Under the pieces are notes generated by a model that saw only the letters and a program-made list of their open reading frames with translations, did no database searches and was not told the origin of the DNA. A stretch of 64,000 bases of DNA. Source: Halomonas sp. Lineage in GTDB: Bacteria > Pseudomonadota > Gammaproteobacteria > Pseudomonadales > Halomonadaceae. A program made the position numbers and the translations under genes. The stretch is from the NCBI RefSeq assembly GCF_020832045.1, contig NZ_JAFIFK010000050.1:62001-126000 (forward strand), read 5' to 3'. Below, in pieces: positions 46,275 to 55,137 of this stretch; the first letter of the stretch is position 1, and the number at the start of each line of letters is the position of its first letter.

Positions 46275-47326
46275 CCCTTCCTCCATGAAGTCCGAAAAGC
46301 AACTCTACGACCGGCAAGTCGGCGAGCCCGATCCAGCGTATCGAGTCCCACCCCATTGCCGGAGACGATCAGTGCTACCCGCTGGCCGCTCACGTCGAGT
46401 TCATGCTCGTTGAGTGCGGCAAGCCCCACCGCAGCGGCACCTTCCACCATCAGCTTTTCATGCTCGAGAAAGTCGACCATGGCATGGGCGATGGCCGCCT
46501 CCGAGACTTGATAATGGTTGTCCATCACCTTGCGCACCAGGTCCAGGGTGCACTGGTTGTCGAGACCGATACCGCCACAGAGAGAGTCAGCCAGGCTGTC
46601 GACCTCTTCCACCTCGACGGGCCGGCCCGCTTGCAGGCTTTCCCACATGGCCGCCCCCCGGGATAGGCTCACCCCCGTCAGCTGCGTCTCGGGACGTATG
46701 GCCTTCACCGTTGCGCCGATGCCGCCCAAGAGCCCGCCGCCGGAAAGAGCGACGATGACACGATCAAGATCGGGCGCGTCCTCCATCAGCTCCAACCCGA
46801 TGGTGCCCTGCCCCGCGGCGATCAGCGGGTCGTCGAAGGGTGGGATCAACCTCATGCCGCGCTCATGCACCAGCCGATCGACCTCGAGGAAGGCTTCGTC
46901 CTGACTTTCGCCCACGCGTCTCACCTCGGCGCCCAATGCCTCGATGGCGGCCACCTTGTTGGCCGGCACCAGCCGCGAGAGGCAGATCGTCGCCGGCACC
47001 CCGAGCCGGGCTGCGGCAAACGCCACCGCACGCCCATGGTTGCCGGTGGAAGCCGTGGTCACACCGGCGGCCAGGGCATCTCGCCCTTCACGCTCGATCA
47101 GCGCGGCGATCATGTTGGTGGCCCCGCGCAGCTTGAAGGCCCCCGTAGGTTGAAGGGTTTCCAGCTTGAGCAGGATCTCGGCGTCGAAGCGCCGGGACAG
47201 CATAGCGGAATGAATCAATGGGGTACGCACCGCCTCACCGGCAATGCGCCGGCGCGCCTGGTAAACGGAAGCGAGGGAAACACCGTGGTTGGAATACGAC
47301 ATATCGCTGTTGATTCGAAGGCTCAT
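46271..47326 (-). CDS. eutB: EutB, threonine dehydratase-like PLP enzyme of hydroxyectoine utilisation
   Basis: A 351-residue fold-type II PLP enzyme resembling threonine/serine dehydratase. The Schiff-base Lys is in PTGAFKLRGATNMIAAL, the phosphate loop in VALSGGGLLGGIGA, and TTASTGNHGRAVAFAAARLG is also typical. Coded upstream of and coupled to eutC, as in known hydroxyectoine gene clusters, where it is proposed to act on hydroxyectoine-derived intermediates. An internal ATG at 47302 is an alternative start, and neither has a strong ribosome site. A terminator separates it from doeD, so eutBC may have its own promoter. Confidence 0.87.
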   Translation of the reverse strand: MSLRINSDMSYSNHGVSLASVYQARRRIAGEAVRTPLIHSAMLSRRFDAEILLKLETLQPTGAFKLRGATNMIAALIEREGRDALAAGVTTASTGNHGRAVAFAAARLGVPATICLSRLVPANKVAAIEALGAEVRRVGESQDEAFLEVDRLVHERGMRLIPPFDDPLIAAGQGTIGLELMEDAPDLDRVIVALSGGGLLGGIGATVKAIRPETQLTGVSLSRGAAMWESLQAGRPVEVEEVDSLADSLCGGIGLDNQCTLDLVRKVMDNHYQVSEAAIAHAMVDFLEHEKLMVEGAAAVGLAALNEHELDVSGQRVALIVSGNGVGLDTLDRARRLAGRRVAFRTSWRKG

Positions 47327-47375
47327 AGCGTCGGTTAGCGTTTTTCCAGACTAGGAAAGATTGCCGGGTAGAGCC

Positions 47376-47405
47376 AAGAAAAAGGCCGCGGGGTTGCCCG
47401 CGGCC
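47376..47405 (-). terminator. Rho-independent terminator after doeD
   Basis: GGCCGCGGG-4 nt-CCCGCGGCC is a perfect 9-bp GC stem. On the minus strand it is followed by TTTTTCTT, only 19 bp beyond the doeD stop. It should end the doeC-doeD transcript before eutB. Confidence 0.88.
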
Positions 47406-47423
47406 ATGTTGTGACACGGCGAT

Positions 47424-48848
47424 TCAGCTGATCGACATGACGGTCTTGATGGCACCTTCACGGACCAGCTGATCGGTGACCTTGCTCACAGCGCGCTCGG
47501 TGCGGGCAACGATCTCGTCTACCTCGGCGCGGGTCGCGACCAACGGCGGGGCAAAGCCGAGAATGTCGCCCTGAGGCATGGCGCGGGCGATCAGGTTCTC
47601 GTCCAGCGCTGCCGCGGCGATACGCGCACCGACCTTGTGCGCGGCGTCGAAGTGCTGGCGCTTGGCCGGGTCGACGGAGAATTCCAGCGCGGCCAGCATG
47701 CCCACGCCGCGCACGTTACCGACGATGGGATGCTCGCCGAAGGCGGCCTGCATCTGCTGCTGCAGATAGGCGCCGGTCTCGGCGGCGTTGGCGGTAAGCC
47801 CCTCGCGCTCGATGATCGCCAGGTTGGCCAGCGCAGCGGCACACCCAAGGGCGTGGCCGGAGTAGGTCCAGCCGTGACCGATGGGACCATACTCGGCGGT
47901 GCCCTGCTCCAGCACGCTCCACACGCGGTCGCCGACGATCACGCCGGAGAGCGGCTGGTAGGCGCTGGTCAGGCCCTTGGCGACGGTAATCAGGTCGGGC
48001 TTGATACCGTAATAGTGGCTGCCGAAGTCAGCGCCGATACGGCCGAAGCCGCATACCACTTCGTCGGCGATCAGCAGCACGTCGTACTTGGCCAGCACCG
48101 CCTGAATCGCCTCCCAGTAGCCTTCCGGTGGCGGCACGATACCGCCGGTGCCGAGCACCGGTTCGCCGATGAAGGCGGCCACGGTGTCGGGGCCTTCGGC
48201 CAGGATCATCTCCTCCAGCTTCTGCGCGCAGAACCGGGAGAATTCACGCTCACTCATGCCTTGCTGCTCGGCAGCGCGGTGGTAGTAGTGCGGCGCCTCG
48301 GTGTGCAGGATACCGGCTAACGGCAGGTCGAACTGGTCGTGAAACGCCTTGAGACCGGTCAGCGAGCCGGTGGCCAGGCCCGAGCCGTGGTAGCCGCGCT
48401 GGCGCGAGATCACCTTCTTCTTCTGCGGGCGACCCAGCACGTTGTTGTAGTAGCGCACGATCTTGAGCTGGGTCTCGTTGGCGTCAGAGCCGCCGAGGCC
48501 GTAGTAGACCTTGGACATGCCGGGGCCGGCGAGCGCGAGAATCTTCTCGGAGAGTGCGATCTGCGGCTCGTTGGAGTGGCCCACGTAGGTGTGGTAGTAC
48601 GAGAGCTCCAGCGCCTGCTGGTAGATCGCCTCGGCCACCTCGGTGCGGCCGTAGCCGATGTTGACGCAGTACAGCCCGGCGAAACCGTCGATGAACTCGC
48701 GGCCATCCTTGTCGACGATATGAATGCCCTTGCCGCCGGTGATCACCCGGCCCGGTGCGTCGCCATGGGCGAAGTCGCGCAGGTGGGTGGAGGCGTGAAA
48801 GGTGACCTTGCGGTCGCGCTCGATCAGATCGCGGTGCTGCTGGTTCAT
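47424..48848 (-). CDS. doeD: Diaminobutyrate transaminase-type class III aminotransferase (DoeD)
   Basis: ATG 48848 gives 474 residues; the track start 49001 runs into the intergenic repeat. It is a class III PLP aminotransferase with the Lys in DLITVAKGLTSAYQPLSG and the Asp in LLIADEVVCGFGR. In Halomonas DoeD moves the amino group of L-2,4-diaminobutyrate to give aspartate semialdehyde, the DoeC substrate. Similar enzymes act on beta-alanine or putrescine, so the identity leans on the locus. GAGAG precedes the start. A terminator follows it, and the noncoding repeat separates it from doeC. Confidence 0.9.
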   Translation of the reverse strand: MNQQHRDLIERDRKVTFHASTHLRDFAHGDAPGRVITGGKGIHIVDKDGREFIDGFAGLYCVNIGYGRTEVAEAIYQQALELSYYHTYVGHSNEPQIALSEKILALAGPGMSKVYYGLGGSDANETQLKIVRYYNNVLGRPQKKKVISRQRGYHGSGLATGSLTGLKAFHDQFDLPLAGILHTEAPHYYHRAAEQQGMSEREFSRFCAQKLEEMILAEGPDTVAAFIGEPVLGTGGIVPPPEGYWEAIQAVLAKYDVLLIADEVVCGFGRIGADFGSHYYGIKPDLITVAKGLTSAYQPLSGVIVGDRVWSVLEQGTAEYGPIGHGWTYSGHALGCAAALANLAIIEREGLTANAAETGAYLQQQMQAAFGEHPIVGNVRGVGMLAALEFSVDPAKRQHFDAAHKVGARIAAAALDENLIARAMPQGDILGFAPPLVATRAEVDEIVARTERAVSKVTDQLVREGAIKTVMSIS

Positions 48849-48889: not shown

Positions 48890-49116
48890 AGTGTTCACAT
48901 GACGCATATTGGGATGTACATCGCCGCCATGCGACAACTCGCGATGCCCTCGGACGAAACCCTGAGGCTTCGCTTGCGGCTTGCGCGTCGAATCGGAACA
49001 AGGTCCCTCTTGCCGATTCTCGATCGATATCCCTGTCGATCGCCGCGCGCCGCTGCGCTTGCCTCAGCGTCCTCGGGTAGATATCGCTCGATGTCGCATC
49101 CCGGCTAAGTGTTCAC
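48890..49116. repeat. Noncoding element flanked by 9-bp direct repeats with imperfect terminal inverted repeats
   Basis: AGTGTTCAC occurs at 48890-48898 and again at 49108-49116, enclosing 209 bp. The inner ends are imperfect inverted copies. On the left are GGGATGTACATCG, ATGCGACA and CTGAGGC. Read from the right on the other strand are GGGATGCGACATCGAG, the same ATGCGACA, and CTGAGGC. A smaller CGATCGA/TCGATCG stem lies nearer the middle. No ORF of note is present. This resembles a small nonautonomous insertion or REP/ERIC-like repeat. The right direct repeat touches the doeC stop codon. Only one copy is present in the window. Confidence 0.55.
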
Positions 49117-50615
49117 TAGCTTCCGGAAACAGACCCCAAGGCGCCGAGGCAGTAATACTTCGTTTCCAGATACTCGTCGATGCCGGTAATGCCGCCCTCG
49201 CGACCCAGCCCCGACTGCTTGACGCCGCCAAAGGGCACCGGCGGGCCGGTCATCTTCACCGAGTTGACGCTGACCATGCCGAACTCCAGCGCCCGCAGCA
49301 GCTTCCAGATGCGGCGGATGTCGTGGGTGTAGACATAGGCCGCCAGGCCGTACTCGGTATCGTTGGCCATGGCGATGACTTCATCGTCGTCGCGGTAGGC
49401 GGTCACGCCCGCCACCGGGGCGAAGTTCTCCTCGCGCCATACCTTCATCTGCGGCGTCACGTCGGTCAGCAGAACGGGCATGAAGAAGTTCTCGCCCGGC
49501 GCCTGGGTCTGGTCGCCGGCCACCAGCGTGGCGCCACGAGAGATGGCGTCGTCGACGATGGCGGAAGCCTTGTCCACCGCCTGGCGGTGGATCAGGGGCC
49601 CCATGTCGACCTCGCCCTCCATGCCGTTGCCCACGGTCAACGCCGCCATGCGCTCGGCAAAGTGCGCGACGAACTCATCGTGGATCGACTCGTGCACCAG
49701 AATGCGGTTGGCTGCCAGGCAGTCCTGACCCGCCGTCTGGAACTTTGCCGCAACCGCGGCGAAGGCCGCCTCCTTCGGGTCCATGTCGGGGCCGACGATG
49801 AACGGGGCGTTGCCGCCCAGCTCCAGCGACACGCGCTTCACGGTCTGGGCGCTCTGCTCCAGCAGCAGCCGACCGACGCGCGTGGAACCGGTGAAGGATA
49901 GCGCCTTGACGTGCTCCTCGGCACACAGAATTTTCGACACTTCCGCCGGCTCGCCCAGCACCACGTTGAATACCCCCGCCGGAATGCCGGCTCGCTCGGC
50001 CAGTTCGGCCAGCGCCAGCGCCGAGAACGGGGTCTCGCCGGCCGGCTTGACGATCACCGGGCAGCCGGCGGCCAGGGCGGCGGCGGCCTTGCGAGTGATC
50101 ATCGCCAGCGGAAAGTTCCACGGCGTGATCAGTGCGGCAATGCCCACCGGCTCCTTGAGCGTACCCAGGGCGGCGTTGGGGATGTGGCTGGGAATGGTCT
50201 CGCCGAAGGTGCGCTTGCCCTCCTCGGCGAACCAGCGCACGAAACTGGCGCCGTACTCCACTTCGCCGCGAGCGTCGGGCAGCGGCTTGCCCTGCTCCAG
50301 CGTCATGATGATGGCGAGATCCTCACGGTTCGCTTGAAGCAGGTCGTGCCAGGCCATGAGACGCTCGGCACGCTCGTCAGCGCGCAGCGCACGCCAGTGC
50401 GCGAAAGCGGCATCGGCAGCGTCTATCGCTTCGCGGATCTGATGCGCTTCGAGCCAGGGGATATAGCCGATGGATTCGCCGGTGGCGGGATCGAACACGG
50501 TCTCTTCACGGCCGCCCTCGCCATGAGTCCACTTGCCGTTGACGTAGGCGTGCTGACGAAACAGACGCGGATCATCAAGCATGGTGGACAGTGTATTGGT
50601 CAGCTTCATGTTCAT
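49116..50615 (-). CDS. doeC: NAD(P)-dependent semialdehyde dehydrogenase (DoeC)
   Basis: A 499-residue aldehyde dehydrogenase starting at ATG 50615, with GGGAGG five bases upstream. The conserved Glu lies in SLELGGNAPFIV and the catalytic Cys in FQTAGQDCLAANRI. General family scoring would call it succinate-semialdehyde dehydrogenase (GabD-like). In Halomonas the doe-locus enzyme oxidises aspartate semialdehyde to aspartate, the last step of ectoine breakdown, and that is the likely role here. It is preceded by the doeX terminator and followed by the noncoding repeat and doeD. Confidence 0.9.
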   Translation of the reverse strand: MNMKLTNTLSTMLDDPRLFRQHAYVNGKWTHGEGGREETVFDPATGESIGYIPWLEAHQIREAIDAADAAFAHWRALRADERAERLMAWHDLLQANREDLAIIMTLEQGKPLPDARGEVEYGASFVRWFAEEGKRTFGETIPSHIPNAALGTLKEPVGIAALITPWNFPLAMITRKAAAALAAGCPVIVKPAGETPFSALALAELAERAGIPAGVFNVVLGEPAEVSKILCAEEHVKALSFTGSTRVGRLLLEQSAQTVKRVSLELGGNAPFIVGPDMDPKEAAFAAVAAKFQTAGQDCLAANRILVHESIHDEFVAHFAERMAALTVGNGMEGEVDMGPLIHRQAVDKASAIVDDAISRGATLVAGDQTQAPGENFFMPVLLTDVTPQMKVWREENFAPVAGVTAYRDDDEVIAMANDTEYGLAAYVYTHDIRRIWKLLRALEFGMVSVNSVKMTGPPVPFGGVKQSGLGREGGITGIDEYLETKYYCLGALGSVSGS

Positions 50616-50659
50616 GGGCACCTCCCCTGACACCGACCCTCGCTCACGGGCCGGCTGTG

Positions 50660-50690
50660 GCAAAAACGACAGAGCAGCCGGCGGCTGCTC
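50660..50690 (-). terminator. Terminator between doeX and doeC
   Basis: GAGCAGCC-GGC-GGCTGCTC forms an 8-bp stem. On the minus strand a TTTTT run begins five bases after it. It lies about 110 bp beyond the doeX stop and 45 bp before the doeC start, suggesting that doeABX and doeCD are at least partly separate transcripts. Confidence 0.55.
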
Positions 50691-50802
50691 AATGGCTACA
50701 GGGTAAGGGCAAACCCGGGGCGGGACTTTTCGTTAACCAGCAGGGCAAGTGCGCTTTTTTTTGTGTTAGCCGGCAAAGCTGTGCTTTTTTCCTCGCCGCG
50801 GC

Positions 50803-51276
50803 TCAGGCCAGCCGGTCGGGCATGACGTGGGAGCTCTTCTGCTTCACCGTCTTGGTCACGATGTAGGTGAAATAGCGCTCGATACCGACCTCTGAGGTGA
50901 GCCACGCATCGATCAGCCGCTGGTAGGCATCGACGGAGTCGGCCTCGATCTTGATCAGATAGTCGACCCCGCCCCCCACCGCCACACACTCGGTGACTTC
51001 CGGCGTCTCCTGCACCCGGGCCTCGAAGAGGGCAAAGCTCTCGGCATTGTGCTGCTTGAGCTCGATCTGCACCCACACCGGAGTAAGTTTGACCAGCGCA
51101 TCGGGGTTGATACGCGCACTGTACCCCTCGATGATGCCGGCCTTCTCCAGGCGCCGAACCCGCTCCCAGCACGGGCTGACCGAGAGATTGATCGCCTCGG
51201 CCAGCTTCGACTTGGTGATGCGACCATCGCGGGTCAGGATCTCGAGAATCTTCAGGTCATAGCGATCGAGTTTCAT
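50803..51276 (-). CDS. doeX: DoeX, Lrp/AsnC-family regulator of ectoine catabolism
   Basis: A 157-residue regulator. The N-terminal helix-turn-helix is DGRITKSKLAEAINLSVSPC followed by WERVRRLEKAGIIEGYSARI. The C-terminal RAM ligand domain has VAVGGGVDYLIKIEADSVDA. In Halomonas DoeX binds upstream of doeA and responds to pathway intermediates. It is coded between doeB and doeC on the same strand, 19 bp after doeB. About 190 bp follow it, containing two T-rich runs on the minus strand and a terminator. Confidence 0.92.
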   Translation of the reverse strand: MKLDRYDLKILEILTRDGRITKSKLAEAINLSVSPCWERVRRLEKAGIIEGYSARINPDALVKLTPVWVQIELKQHNAESFALFEARVQETPEVTECVAVGGGVDYLIKIEADSVDAYQRLIDAWLTSEVGIERYFTYIVTKTVKQKSSHVMPDRLA

Positions 51277-52320: not shown

Positions 52321-53520
52321 TTATTTCACGAATAGCTGGCGGGGAAAGTTGGCCAGCGACTCGCAACCGGTCTCGGTGATTAGAATGCTCTCGGTGATCT
52401 CCAGTCCCCAGTCGTCCTGCCACAGGCCGGGCATGAAGTGGAAGGTCATTCCCGGTTCGAGGATATTGTCGTCCGAAGGACGCAGACTCATGGTGCGCTC
52501 GCCCCAGTCAGGCGGATAGCTGATGCCGATAGGATAGCCGCAGCGCGCACCGCCGCGGTCGAAGCCGTACTTGTCCATGGCGGCGCCCAGCGCCATGGCG
52601 ATATCGGCGGTACGGTTGCCGGGGCGGGCCACGGCAAGCCCGCGCTCGATCCCTTCGAGCAGGGCCGATTCCGCGCGGATGAAATCCTGCGGCGGCCGTC
52701 CCAGGAACACGGTGCGCGACAGCGGCGCATGGTAGCGCTTGAACACGCCGGCGATCTCGAAGAAGGTGCCCTCCCCTTCGCGGAAGGGGGTGTCGTCCCA
52801 GGTTAGATGGGGCGCCGCCGCGTCCTTGCCGGTGGGCAGCATGGGCACGATGGCGGGGTAGTCACCGCCATGCACCTTGCCGTTCTCGTCCACCCAACCT
52901 TCGATACCGACACGGTAGATCTCGGAAACCAGCTTGCTCTTGGGCAGGCCGGGTTCGATCACCTCGAGAATGCGCGAATGCATGCCCTCGACGATCTTGC
53001 CGGCAATGCGCATGTAGGCGATTTCCTGGGGCGACTTGATCTTGCGGCACCAGTTGACCAATGCATTGGCATCCAGAAAACGTGCGTGAGGCAGCTCGCG
53101 CAAGAGGCTCTGGTAGGCCTTGGCAGAAAAGTAATAATTGTCCATCTCCAGGCCCACCACCCCCTGGTGCCAGCCTCGGTCGGGCATGATCGACTGGGCC
53201 AGATAGTCCATGGGGTGCATGTCCGGGTTCTGCACGTAATAGTCGGGGTAGTAGGTGATATTGTCAGGATCGATCCAACAGGTGCGCAGCGCCCCGTTGG
53301 CATCCATACGGCGACCGTACCAGACCGGCTCGCCCTCGAGCCCTACCAGCACGCATTGATGCACATAGAAAGACCAGCCATCGTAGCCGGTCAGCCAAGC
53401 CATGTTGGAGGGATCGCTGATAACTAGCACGTCGATCCCTCGACTGGCCATTTCGGCACGTACCTTCCATAGGCGGCTTGCGTATTCTTCACGAGTGAAG
53501 GGCAGGGTTACCTGAGTCAT
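52321..53520 (-). CDS. doeA: Ectoine hydrolase (DoeA)
   Basis: A 399-residue member of the M24 creatinase/prolidase fold. The N-terminal creatinase-like domain (residues 1-150) has WLTGYDGWSFYVHQCVLV. The C-terminal pita-bread domain has EGTFFEIAGVFKRYHAPLSR and GYPIGISYPPDWGERTM, closely recalling EutD/DoeA. It hydrolyses the ectoine ring to N-acetyl-diaminobutyrate. It is the first gene of the minus-strand doe operon, facing enuR across a 210-bp control region. A large leader hairpin lies just before its start. The ribosome site is weak (GGCGAG). Confidence 0.94.
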   Translation of the reverse strand: MTQVTLPFTREEYASRLWKVRAEMASRGIDVLVISDPSNMAWLTGYDGWSFYVHQCVLVGLEGEPVWYGRRMDANGALRTCWIDPDNITYYPDYYVQNPDMHPMDYLAQSIMPDRGWHQGVVGLEMDNYYFSAKAYQSLLRELPHARFLDANALVNWCRKIKSPQEIAYMRIAGKIVEGMHSRILEVIEPGLPKSKLVSEIYRVGIEGWVDENGKVHGGDYPAIVPMLPTGKDAAAPHLTWDDTPFREGEGTFFEIAGVFKRYHAPLSRTVFLGRPPQDFIRAESALLEGIERGLAVARPGNRTADIAMALGAAMDKYGFDRGGARCGYPIGISYPPDWGERTMSLRPSDDNILEPGMTFHFMPGLWQDDWGLEITESILITETGCESLANFPRQLFVK

Positions 53521-53548
53521 GGGCCACTCGCCGTTGGATCACCACGAA

Positions 53549-53575
53549 CCGGCCGACTCAGGGAGAGTCGGCCGG
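53549..53575 (-). promoter_or_regulatory. 11-bp GC-rich hairpin in the doeA leader
   Basis: CCGGCCGACTC-AGGGA-GAGTCGGCCGG is a perfect 11-bp stem with a 5-nt loop, ending 28 bp upstream of the doeA ATG. No U tract follows. If transcribed it would form a very stable structure near the ribosome site; as DNA it is a strong dyad that could bind DoeX. Confidence 0.6.
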
Positions 53576-53649
53576 GCCATCGGATAGTCGGTCATCTACG
53601 GTCAGGGTAAAAGACCGATACCGGAATCGTGCTGATCTATTTGGCCATA

Positions 53650-53661
53650 AATCATGACAAT
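53650..53661. promoter_or_regulatory. First copy of 12-bp direct repeat, candidate EnuR/DoeX site
   Basis: AATCATGACAAT, identical to the copy at 53727-53738 and in the same orientation, 77 bp apart start to start. Direct repeats are common operators of MocR-type regulators such as EnuR. Confidence 0.5.
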
Positions 53662-53726
53662 CCCAGTCCAATGCCGCTAAGCTGATAGTAGCACCACCCG
53701 TTGGCTGGCGGTCAAAGGCTTTATTG

Positions 53727-53738
53727 AATCATGACAAT
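53727..53738. promoter_or_regulatory. Second copy of 12-bp direct repeat, over the enuR start codon
   Basis: AATCATGACAAT spans the first codons of enuR (ATGACAAT), so a protein bound here would block enuR expression. This suggests autorepression, but it has not been tested. Confidence 0.5.
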
Positions 53739-55137
53739 TGATCTAACTCCGTACCTGACCGACACCGGGCCTAAGTATCTGGCCATAGCGCGTGCCCTTT
53801 CGGAAGCGGTGCGCCAGGGAGAACTCGTGCCGGGTACTCGGCTGCCACCCCATCGGCAGTTGGCCGAAAGCCTTGGGGTCAGCGTACAGACCGTATCGCG
53901 AGCCTACGCCCAGGCCGAGAAAATGGGGCTGGTGCAGGCCCGAGTCGGCAGCGGCACCTGGATCAATGCCCTGGACGACGCCCGCGAGTCGGCTTATCTA
54001 CGGGGACATGAGGCGCGTCAGGACAACCCTCTGATCGACCTGTCGATCGCCCATCCGGTCTGCCCCCCCGGGCATCACCTGCGCTTTCGCCAGACGCTTG
54101 CAGAGCTGGCCGAACTGGCAAGCCCCGAGGTCATCAGCGCCTGTCGCCCTATCGCCGGCCTTGCCCATCAGCGGGAACGTGCCAGTGCGTGGCTGCAACA
54201 TCGCCTTCACGTTCCCGGCGAGATGGACGATCGAATTTTGTGCAATGGCGCCGCCCATGGCCTGATGCTGGCGATTTCCAGCGTGGTGCAACACGGCGAT
54301 CTGGTGCTGACCGAAGCCCTGACCGATCACGGTCTGATCGCACTGTCACGCACGCTCGGTTTCCAGTTGCGCGGCATTGCCATCGACGCCGAAGGCATCG
54401 TGCCCGAGGCGTTGGAGCTTGCCTGTCAGCGCTTCAAGCCGCGTGCGCTCTATCTCACCCCCACCCAGCTCAACCCCACCGGAGCGACCATGAGCGAGGC
54501 CCGCCGCGACGCCGTGGCCGACGTGCTGGCCCGCCATCGGGTATGGTTGATCGAGGACGATGTGCATGCGCTATTGGAATCTCCAAGCTTCACCCCGGTC
54601 ACGGCGCGCATTCCACAGCTGAGCTTTCATGTCACCAGCTTGACCAAGGTGACCGTACCGGGCCTGCGCGCCGGCTACCTCACCGTACCCCGTGGCCAGT
54701 TGCATCACGTACTGCCACGCATGCGTGCCACCACCTGGATGGCGACTCCGCTGATCTTCGAGATCGCCGACCGCTGGATCGGCGATGGCTCCGTGGAAAC
54801 TCTGGCCGCCGAGCAGCGCAACCTGCTCGGCGAACGCCAACAGCTCGCCCGTCGCCTGCTCGGCCATCATGCATTGGAGTCGCGTCCCACCAGCCTGCAC
54901 GTCTGGATCTCGCTGCCCGACGCCTGGCGCGGCGAGGAGCTTCAACAGCAGGCGGAACAGGAAGGCCTGGCAATCACCACTGCGGTGCCGTTCATGGTGG
55001 AGCAGACCCCACCCCCCCGGCGCATTCGGGTGAGCCTGGGTGCCGAACAGGATATCGCTCGGCTAGAAGAGGGCCTAAGGCGTCTGGTCGCCCTGCTCGA
55101 CGAGGCGCCACCGCCCATGATGCAGATCGTCTACTGA
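53731..55137 (+). CDS. enuR: EnuR, MocR/GntR-type regulator of ectoine utilisation
   Basis: A 468-residue MocR protein. Residues 1-80 form a GntR winged helix (PPHRQLAESLGVSVQTVSRA). The rest is a fold-type I aminotransferase-like domain with the PLP Lys at residue 306 in TSLTKVTVPGLRAGY, preceded by NPTGATMSEARRDAV and WLIEDDVHALL. EnuR of marine bacteria represses ectoine genes until PLP reacts with an ectoine breakdown product. Divergence from doeA and the matching locus support that name over other MocR types. The hydroxyacid dehydrogenase gene follows after 15 bp. Confidence 0.87.
   Translation: MTIDLTPYLTDTGPKYLAIARALSEAVRQGELVPGTRLPPHRQLAESLGVSVQTVSRAYAQAEKMGLVQARVGSGTWINALDDARESAYLRGHEARQDNPLIDLSIAHPVCPPGHHLRFRQTLAELAELASPEVISACRPIAGLAHQRERASAWLQHRLHVPGEMDDRILCNGAAHGLMLAISSVVQHGDLVLTEALTDHGLIALSRTLGFQLRGIAIDAEGIVPEALELACQRFKPRALYLTPTQLNPTGATMSEARRDAVADVLARHRVWLIEDDVHALLESPSFTPVTARIPQLSFHVTSLTKVTVPGLRAGYLTVPRGQLHHVLPRMRATTWMATPLIFEIADRWIGDGSVETLAAEQRNLLGERQQLARRLLGHHALESRPTSLHVWISLPDAWRGEELQQQAEQEGLAITTAVPFMVEQTPPPRRIRVSLGAEQDIARLEEGLRRLVALLDEAPPPMMQIVY

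Follow-up and report, generated by a model that had tools for sequence, protein, structure and literature searches.

An exact 12-bp repeat lies between doeA and the beginning of enuR

The window (the whole 64,000-nucleotide stretch of Halomonas sp. DNA that was analyzed) harbors the ectoine hydrolase gene doeA at 52321 to 53520 on the minus strand (TIGR02993, 655.7 bits; cut-off, 613). It is the first gene of doeABX; doeB also scored above its curated cut-off, and the third product, the Lrp/AsnC protein DoeX, is encoded at 50803 to 51276, minus strand. Divergently oriented to doeA is enuR (53731 to 55137, plus strand), which encodes a MocR-type repressor of ectoine catabolism. With NF052286, the EhuR/EnuR model used for this gene, it reached 597.5 bits (cut-off, 480). 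The next gene after enuR is GhrA-like. The gap between doeA and enuR comprises 210 bp (53521 to 53730).

The 12-mer AATCATGACAAT is present at 53650 to 53661 (copy 1) and at 53727 to 53738 (copy 2), both on the plus strand and 77 bp apart (start to start). These are its only two copies in the whole 4.08-Mb genome. The preliminary description had reported an exact direct repeat occurring twice in the 210-bp gap, with one copy over the enuR start codon. The repeat was found in the same orientation, and the ATG (53731 to 53733) indeed lies inside copy 2. This copy is not confined to the gap, however, but extends 8 bases into enuR, so that its last 8 bases are coding sequence.

We considered that the repeat may be a functionless chance match. 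An exact direct repeat of at least 12 bp occurred in 31 of 20,000 first-order Markov sequences with the composition of the region (about 0.0016) and in 42 of 2551 overlapping 225-bp stretches of the real window (1.6%). Because real stretches carry such a repeat at this rate, its length by itself is unconvincing. By length alone, the repeat is moderately unusual at most; conservation, not length, gives it significance. To analyze conservation, enuR upstream DNA was collected from 87 loci of the family, which yielded 85 distinct regions. Although the full 12-bp identity between the two copies was found in only 7 of the 85, half-sites were retained in all of them, including relatives with EnuR identity down to about 71%, while the flanks drift. 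The distance between the ACAAT of the upstream half-site (site B, see below) and the start-codon site was 75 to 78 bp in 85/85 regions and exactly 77 bp in 74. A half-site core at such nearly fixed spacing contradicts chance, which is an extremely improbable explanation. As judged from this comparison, the exact 12-bp repeat is partly accidental and sits atop a real shared core. The check proposed in the preliminary description, conservation of the repeat in other Halomonadaceae, thus came out in favor of the half-sites and not of the exact 12-mer.

Copy 2 belongs to an inverted repeat over the enuR start codon

Together with the four bases to its left, copy 2 forms ATTGAATCATGACAAT (53723 to 53738, plus strand), a 16-bp inverted repeat of which copy 2 is the right part. 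According to the account of Suvorova and Rodionov (2016) given in PMC8739950, the EnuR/EutR consensus is the inverted repeat ATTGTN6ACAAT. The element at the start codon matches it at 9 of 10 positions and is a predicted EnuR site with the boxes ATTG (53723 to 53726) and ACAAT (53734 to 53738). ATTG and TC were each conserved in 85/85 regions, and ACAAT showed rare single changes. The corresponding site of Chromohalobacter, ATTGTGTCATGACAAT, matches the consensus at 10 of 10 positions.

Copy 2 spans enuR codons 1 to 3. Of 62 genes, 59 have ACA as codon 2, compared to 5.6% ACA among later threonines, and 54 have ATT as codon 3, compared to 18% among later isoleucines. The placement on the start codon couples the regulator gene tightly to its predicted operator, and codon choice is visibly constrained. 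A general preference for A-rich early codons may contribute to this bias. It does not account for the invariant ATTG, which lies just outside the coding sequence.

Copy 1 is one arm of a second, widely spaced inverted pair

In the frame of the consensus (CATAAATCATGACAAT), copy 1 corresponds to the right half of ATTGTN6ACAAT alone. Its conserved half-site, CA-NN-ACAAT at 53653 to 53661 (plus strand), was designated site B. The CA and the ACAAT of site B are retained in the 85 regions, with TCAAT in a single genome, and the flanking bases drift; its left half shows no conservation of a palindrome. The inverted partner of copy 1 is located 26 bp upstream of it: the half-site at 53626 to 53635 on the minus strand (site A) reads ATCGTGCTGA in the window, corresponding to 7/8 of ATTGTNNTGA. 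All 8 positions of ATTGTNNTGA were matched in 71 of the 85 regions and 7 of them in the other 14, among which is the window. Site A is ATTGTCATGA in most relatives and partly degraded in the window. The start-to-start distance between A and B was 25 to 28 bp in 79/85 regions, and the remaining six represent rival matches chosen by the scoring. The two sites move together relative to the start codon, and their pentamer centers are about 31 bp apart, i.e., three helical turns.

In ten Chromohalobacter genomes, site A is ATTGTACTGA or one base off and site B is TCAGTACAAT. The inner pairs of A and B are AC/GT in these 10 and CA/TG in 62 genomes. Such a matching change of both arms fits a protein that would read the inverted pair. 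The changed genomes all belong to one genus, and the paired change may therefore represent a single event.

Two additional boxes were detected. Box D (YCAAT; CCAAT in the window, 53668 to 53672, plus strand) lies 11 bp after the ACAAT of site B and is weaker, with C, A, A, and T conserved in 81, 79, 80, and 79 of the 85 regions, respectively. The GTCAA box (53711 to 53715, plus strand) is invariant (85/85), lies 23 bp upstream of the start-codon ACAAT, and overlaps the putative −35 element of doeA.

We rejected the idea that the 12-mer is recognized as a direct repeat, since conservation is limited to its core and the element at the start codon is arranged as an inverted repeat. The preliminary description had pointed to direct repeats as frequent targets of MocR regulators and had proposed the 12-mer as a candidate EnuR operator. 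The first idea does not apply here, with one copy belonging to an inverted repeat and the other being half of a separate inverted pair. The second was borne out in part: the elements are very probably EnuR operator sequences, but the 12-bp direct repeat is not the unit.

The predicted sites bracket the putative doeA promoter

For doeA, we assigned a conserved −35 element, TTGACC (53710 to 53715, minus strand), and a conserved −10 element, TACTAT (53685 to 53690, minus strand), the latter with an extended TG and separated by a 19-bp spacer. No promoter was detected in a strict sigma-70 scan, as expected from the 19-bp distance between the two elements and the extended −10. Rfam gave no match close to a gathering score. 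In H. elongata, the mapping data given in PMC3187862 place the doeA transcript start 154 nt upstream of the gene. Strain 153B has a 149-bp insert in the doeA leader; when this is allowed for, and provided that the type strain lacks it, the start lies immediately downstream of the conserved extended −10. Transferred to the window, this start falls near 53680. Relative to the start thus deduced, boxes D, B, and A lie at roughly +8 to +54, and the palindrome over the enuR start codon occupies about −43 to −58. Hence, the predicted sites bracket the putative doeA promoter, and GTCAA is the other strand of the putative −35 element.

This arrangement bears on a reading in which the bases are conserved because they direct transcription (core promoter) or translation start of doeA and enuR, no repressor is involved, and any resemblance to an operator is fortuitous. 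Conservation of GTCAA can be explained by its role as the complement of the doeA −35 alone, and the presence of the enuR ATG in copy 2, along with the A-richness of early codons, points in the same direction. Sites A and B, however, are neither promoter hexamers nor coding sequence, yet they are conserved and changed together, and the ATTG-N8-CAAT dyad agrees with the published EnuR consensus. We consider this reading unlikely, also in view of the genomes lacking EnuR (see below).

The 149-bp element in the doeA leader of H. elongata 153B (L147, 1713 to 1861) is MITE-like, has the inverted ends TAGGGAAACACTG and CAGTGCTTCCATA, and is placed between doeA and its promoter. In H. eurihalina (L148), the distance from doeA to the −10 is the same as in H. 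elongata 153B. The −10 region of doeA (53684 to 53694) is nearly palindromic and reads GGTGATACTATCACC in two relatives. It might accommodate overlapping promoters of opposite orientation and is a candidate enuR promoter. Closer to doeA, about 30 nt before the gene, the leader contains an 11-bp inverted repeat, CCGGCCGACTC/GAGTCGGCCGG (53549 to 53575, minus strand). This hairpin is kept in most of 67 distinct leaders, from genomes with and without EnuR, and several stem positions show paired changes; in the genomes without EnuR, it is followed by ATTTTCTTG. The hairpin is possibly an RNA element or a DoeX site.

The sites occur together with EnuR and not with DoeX

We compared the 85 regions with 21 genomes of the same genus that have DoeA at 90 to 93% identity and no EnuR. 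Neither ATGACAAT nor ATTGTCAT was found within 600 bp of doeA in any of the 21. The TTGACC promoter element is still present in these genomes while all predicted sites are lost, which argues against conserved bases serving as promoter signals only. DoeX was retained in 21/21 of them, and the GhrA-like gene was located beside doeA in 20/21. Thus, the sites occur where EnuR occurs (85 distinct regions with EnuR and 0/21 without). On a DoeA tree, the presence and absence of EnuR require about three changes, one of which is forced by well-supported branches, and the 85-versus-0 contrast therefore reflects few independent events and not 106 independent trials.

These data also bear on DoeX, the Lrp/AsnC regulator encoded in doeABX, as the protein recognizing the repeat. 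Schwibbert et al. examined DoeX binding in gel shifts with three oligonucleotides from H. elongata, and specific binding is reported, in the description of these experiments, for fragment F3, which immediately precedes the start codon of doeA (PMC3187862). The repeat lies within the same intergenic region. Fragment F1 (TGTTAACAAATGTCATGACAATGAACAT) holds site A, with 27/28 bases identical to this stretch of H. elongata 153B, and it was F3, not F1, that was reported as bound, so DoeX most likely acts elsewhere in the region. F3 overlaps the 3′ arm of the leader hairpin. We rejected a DoeX site because of this and because the sites are missing from EnuR-less genomes that carry DoeX; moreover, the consensus matched is the published EnuR one. 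DoeX is accordingly a quite improbable ligand of the repeat.

Comparison to known operators and a model of regulation

The predicted sites resemble the EnuR/EutR/EhuR operators (PMC5320631, PMC8739950) in having inverted ATTGT/ACAAT half-sites with a 6-bp gap and in the presence of two operators at the promoter of an ectoine catabolic operon adjoining enuR. In R. pomeroyi, the EnuR operators overlap the promoter core, and EnuR binds this DNA in vitro (PMC8739950); in the window, a comparable overlap would be that of the GTCAA box with the inferred doeA −35. In contrast to the known operators, one operator in the window contains the enuR ATG, doeA and enuR are divergent, and the other operator is an inverted pair with about 31 bp between centers and an extra YCAAT box. 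The operator is thus probably of a known kind, its unusual features being the start-codon position and the second, widely spaced pair.

Similarity to GabR/TauR-type operators consists in a MocR regulator and several same-direction boxes in one control region. The rule for MocR direct repeats, quoted in PMC5320631, is a distance of two or three whole helical turns. Here, the copies are 77 bp apart, corresponding to 7.3 turns (10.5 bp per turn), and the best element is an inverted repeat. Since 7.3 is not a whole number, a head-to-tail dimer across both copies is not specially favored. The DoeX site of H. elongata (PMC3187862) shares the intergenic region and the target operon with the predicted sites, but F3 adjoins the doeA start codon without containing them, and they vanish with EnuR and not with DoeX.

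Comparison across genomes and the existing literature support the EnuR-operator reading well. With good confidence, we propose that both copies are EnuR-binding elements of a divergent control region in which doeA and enuR are repressed, with doeABX probably being controlled to the same extent as enuR. From the sequence, its conservation, the link with EnuR, and the placement at the doeA promoter, we infer binding, the boxes occupied, repression, and release as follows. Inducer-free EnuR would occupy the start-codon site (GTCAA, 53711 to 53715; ATTG, 53723 to 53726; ACAAT, 53734 to 53738) and the upstream set (A, 53626 to 53635; B, 53652 to 53661; D, 53668 to 53672). The upstream set would cover the start of the doeA transcript, and the GTCAA box would coincide with the doeA −35, so that EnuR on both sides would exclude RNA polymerase from the doeA promoter or trap it there. 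Occupancy of the start codon would block enuR expression; this autorepression is the least certain step. Binding of alpha-ADABA or DABA, products of ectoine breakdown, would release EnuR and turn both genes on.

Ectoine breakdown caps the yield in industrial producers such as Halomonas elongata. The predicted sites are also present in H. elongata 153B. In the 2011 H. elongata genome blueprint, the DNA-binding regulator given for doeABX is DoeX, and there is no mention of a MocR protein. The sites suggest that EnuR is a second, perhaps the main, switch of doeABX, and they provide the exact bases to alter in a laboratory strain.

Related sites elsewhere

No ACAAT or ATTGT was found at the other doe gene borders (50600 to 50830, 48900 to 49130, and 47300 to 47460). 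The pattern ATTGWN6WCAAT occurs at 9 places in this genome. Besides the site described here and a paralogue locus, these overlap predicted open reading frames (ORFs), with one exception, which is located in a gap in front of a gene that has no obvious connection to ectoine. A wider EnuR regulon in this genome was rejected, as the matches mostly overlap predicted ORFs. A gene for the EhuB transporter above cut-off was not found in the genome. In a class-wide search, the Halomonadaceae EnuR profile at 1e-120 retrieved this genome only, and a few distant relatives were recovered with the more general EhuR family model.

In the EnuR paralogue of this genome (C20:126600, 37% identity) and in MocR relatives from other genera, the start codon is enclosed by ATTGTCACCATGACAAT or a close variant of it. 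The GTCAA box is also found upstream of MocR paralogues, and most of the MocR genes with such a start codon have a GTCA(A) box a little upstream. In 339 genomes, exact ATTGTCAYCATGACA was found at 9 places in 9 genomes. Four of the 9 are the first codons of MocR genes 33 to 37% identical to EnuR; the remaining five are unrelated, and the pattern by itself therefore has no diagnostic value. Tentatively, the start-codon operator (ATTGTCAYCATGACA(AT) with the ATG inside) may be old in the EnuR-like MocR clade, and Halomonadaceae may have added the three-turn inverted pair beside the divergent promoter.

At the paralogue locus (L044, 2589 to 4080; G000:C20), the EnuR-like MocR gene is divergent from a LysE/RhtB-like transporter gene. 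Its start codon lies in ATTGTCACCATGACAAT, and a second palindrome, ATTGAATCCATACAAT, is located upstream. In one relative (L010; G053:C1:3425044-3427143), the full enuR is directly followed by a second piece matching enuR residues 329 to 468 at 84% identity, a partial duplication.
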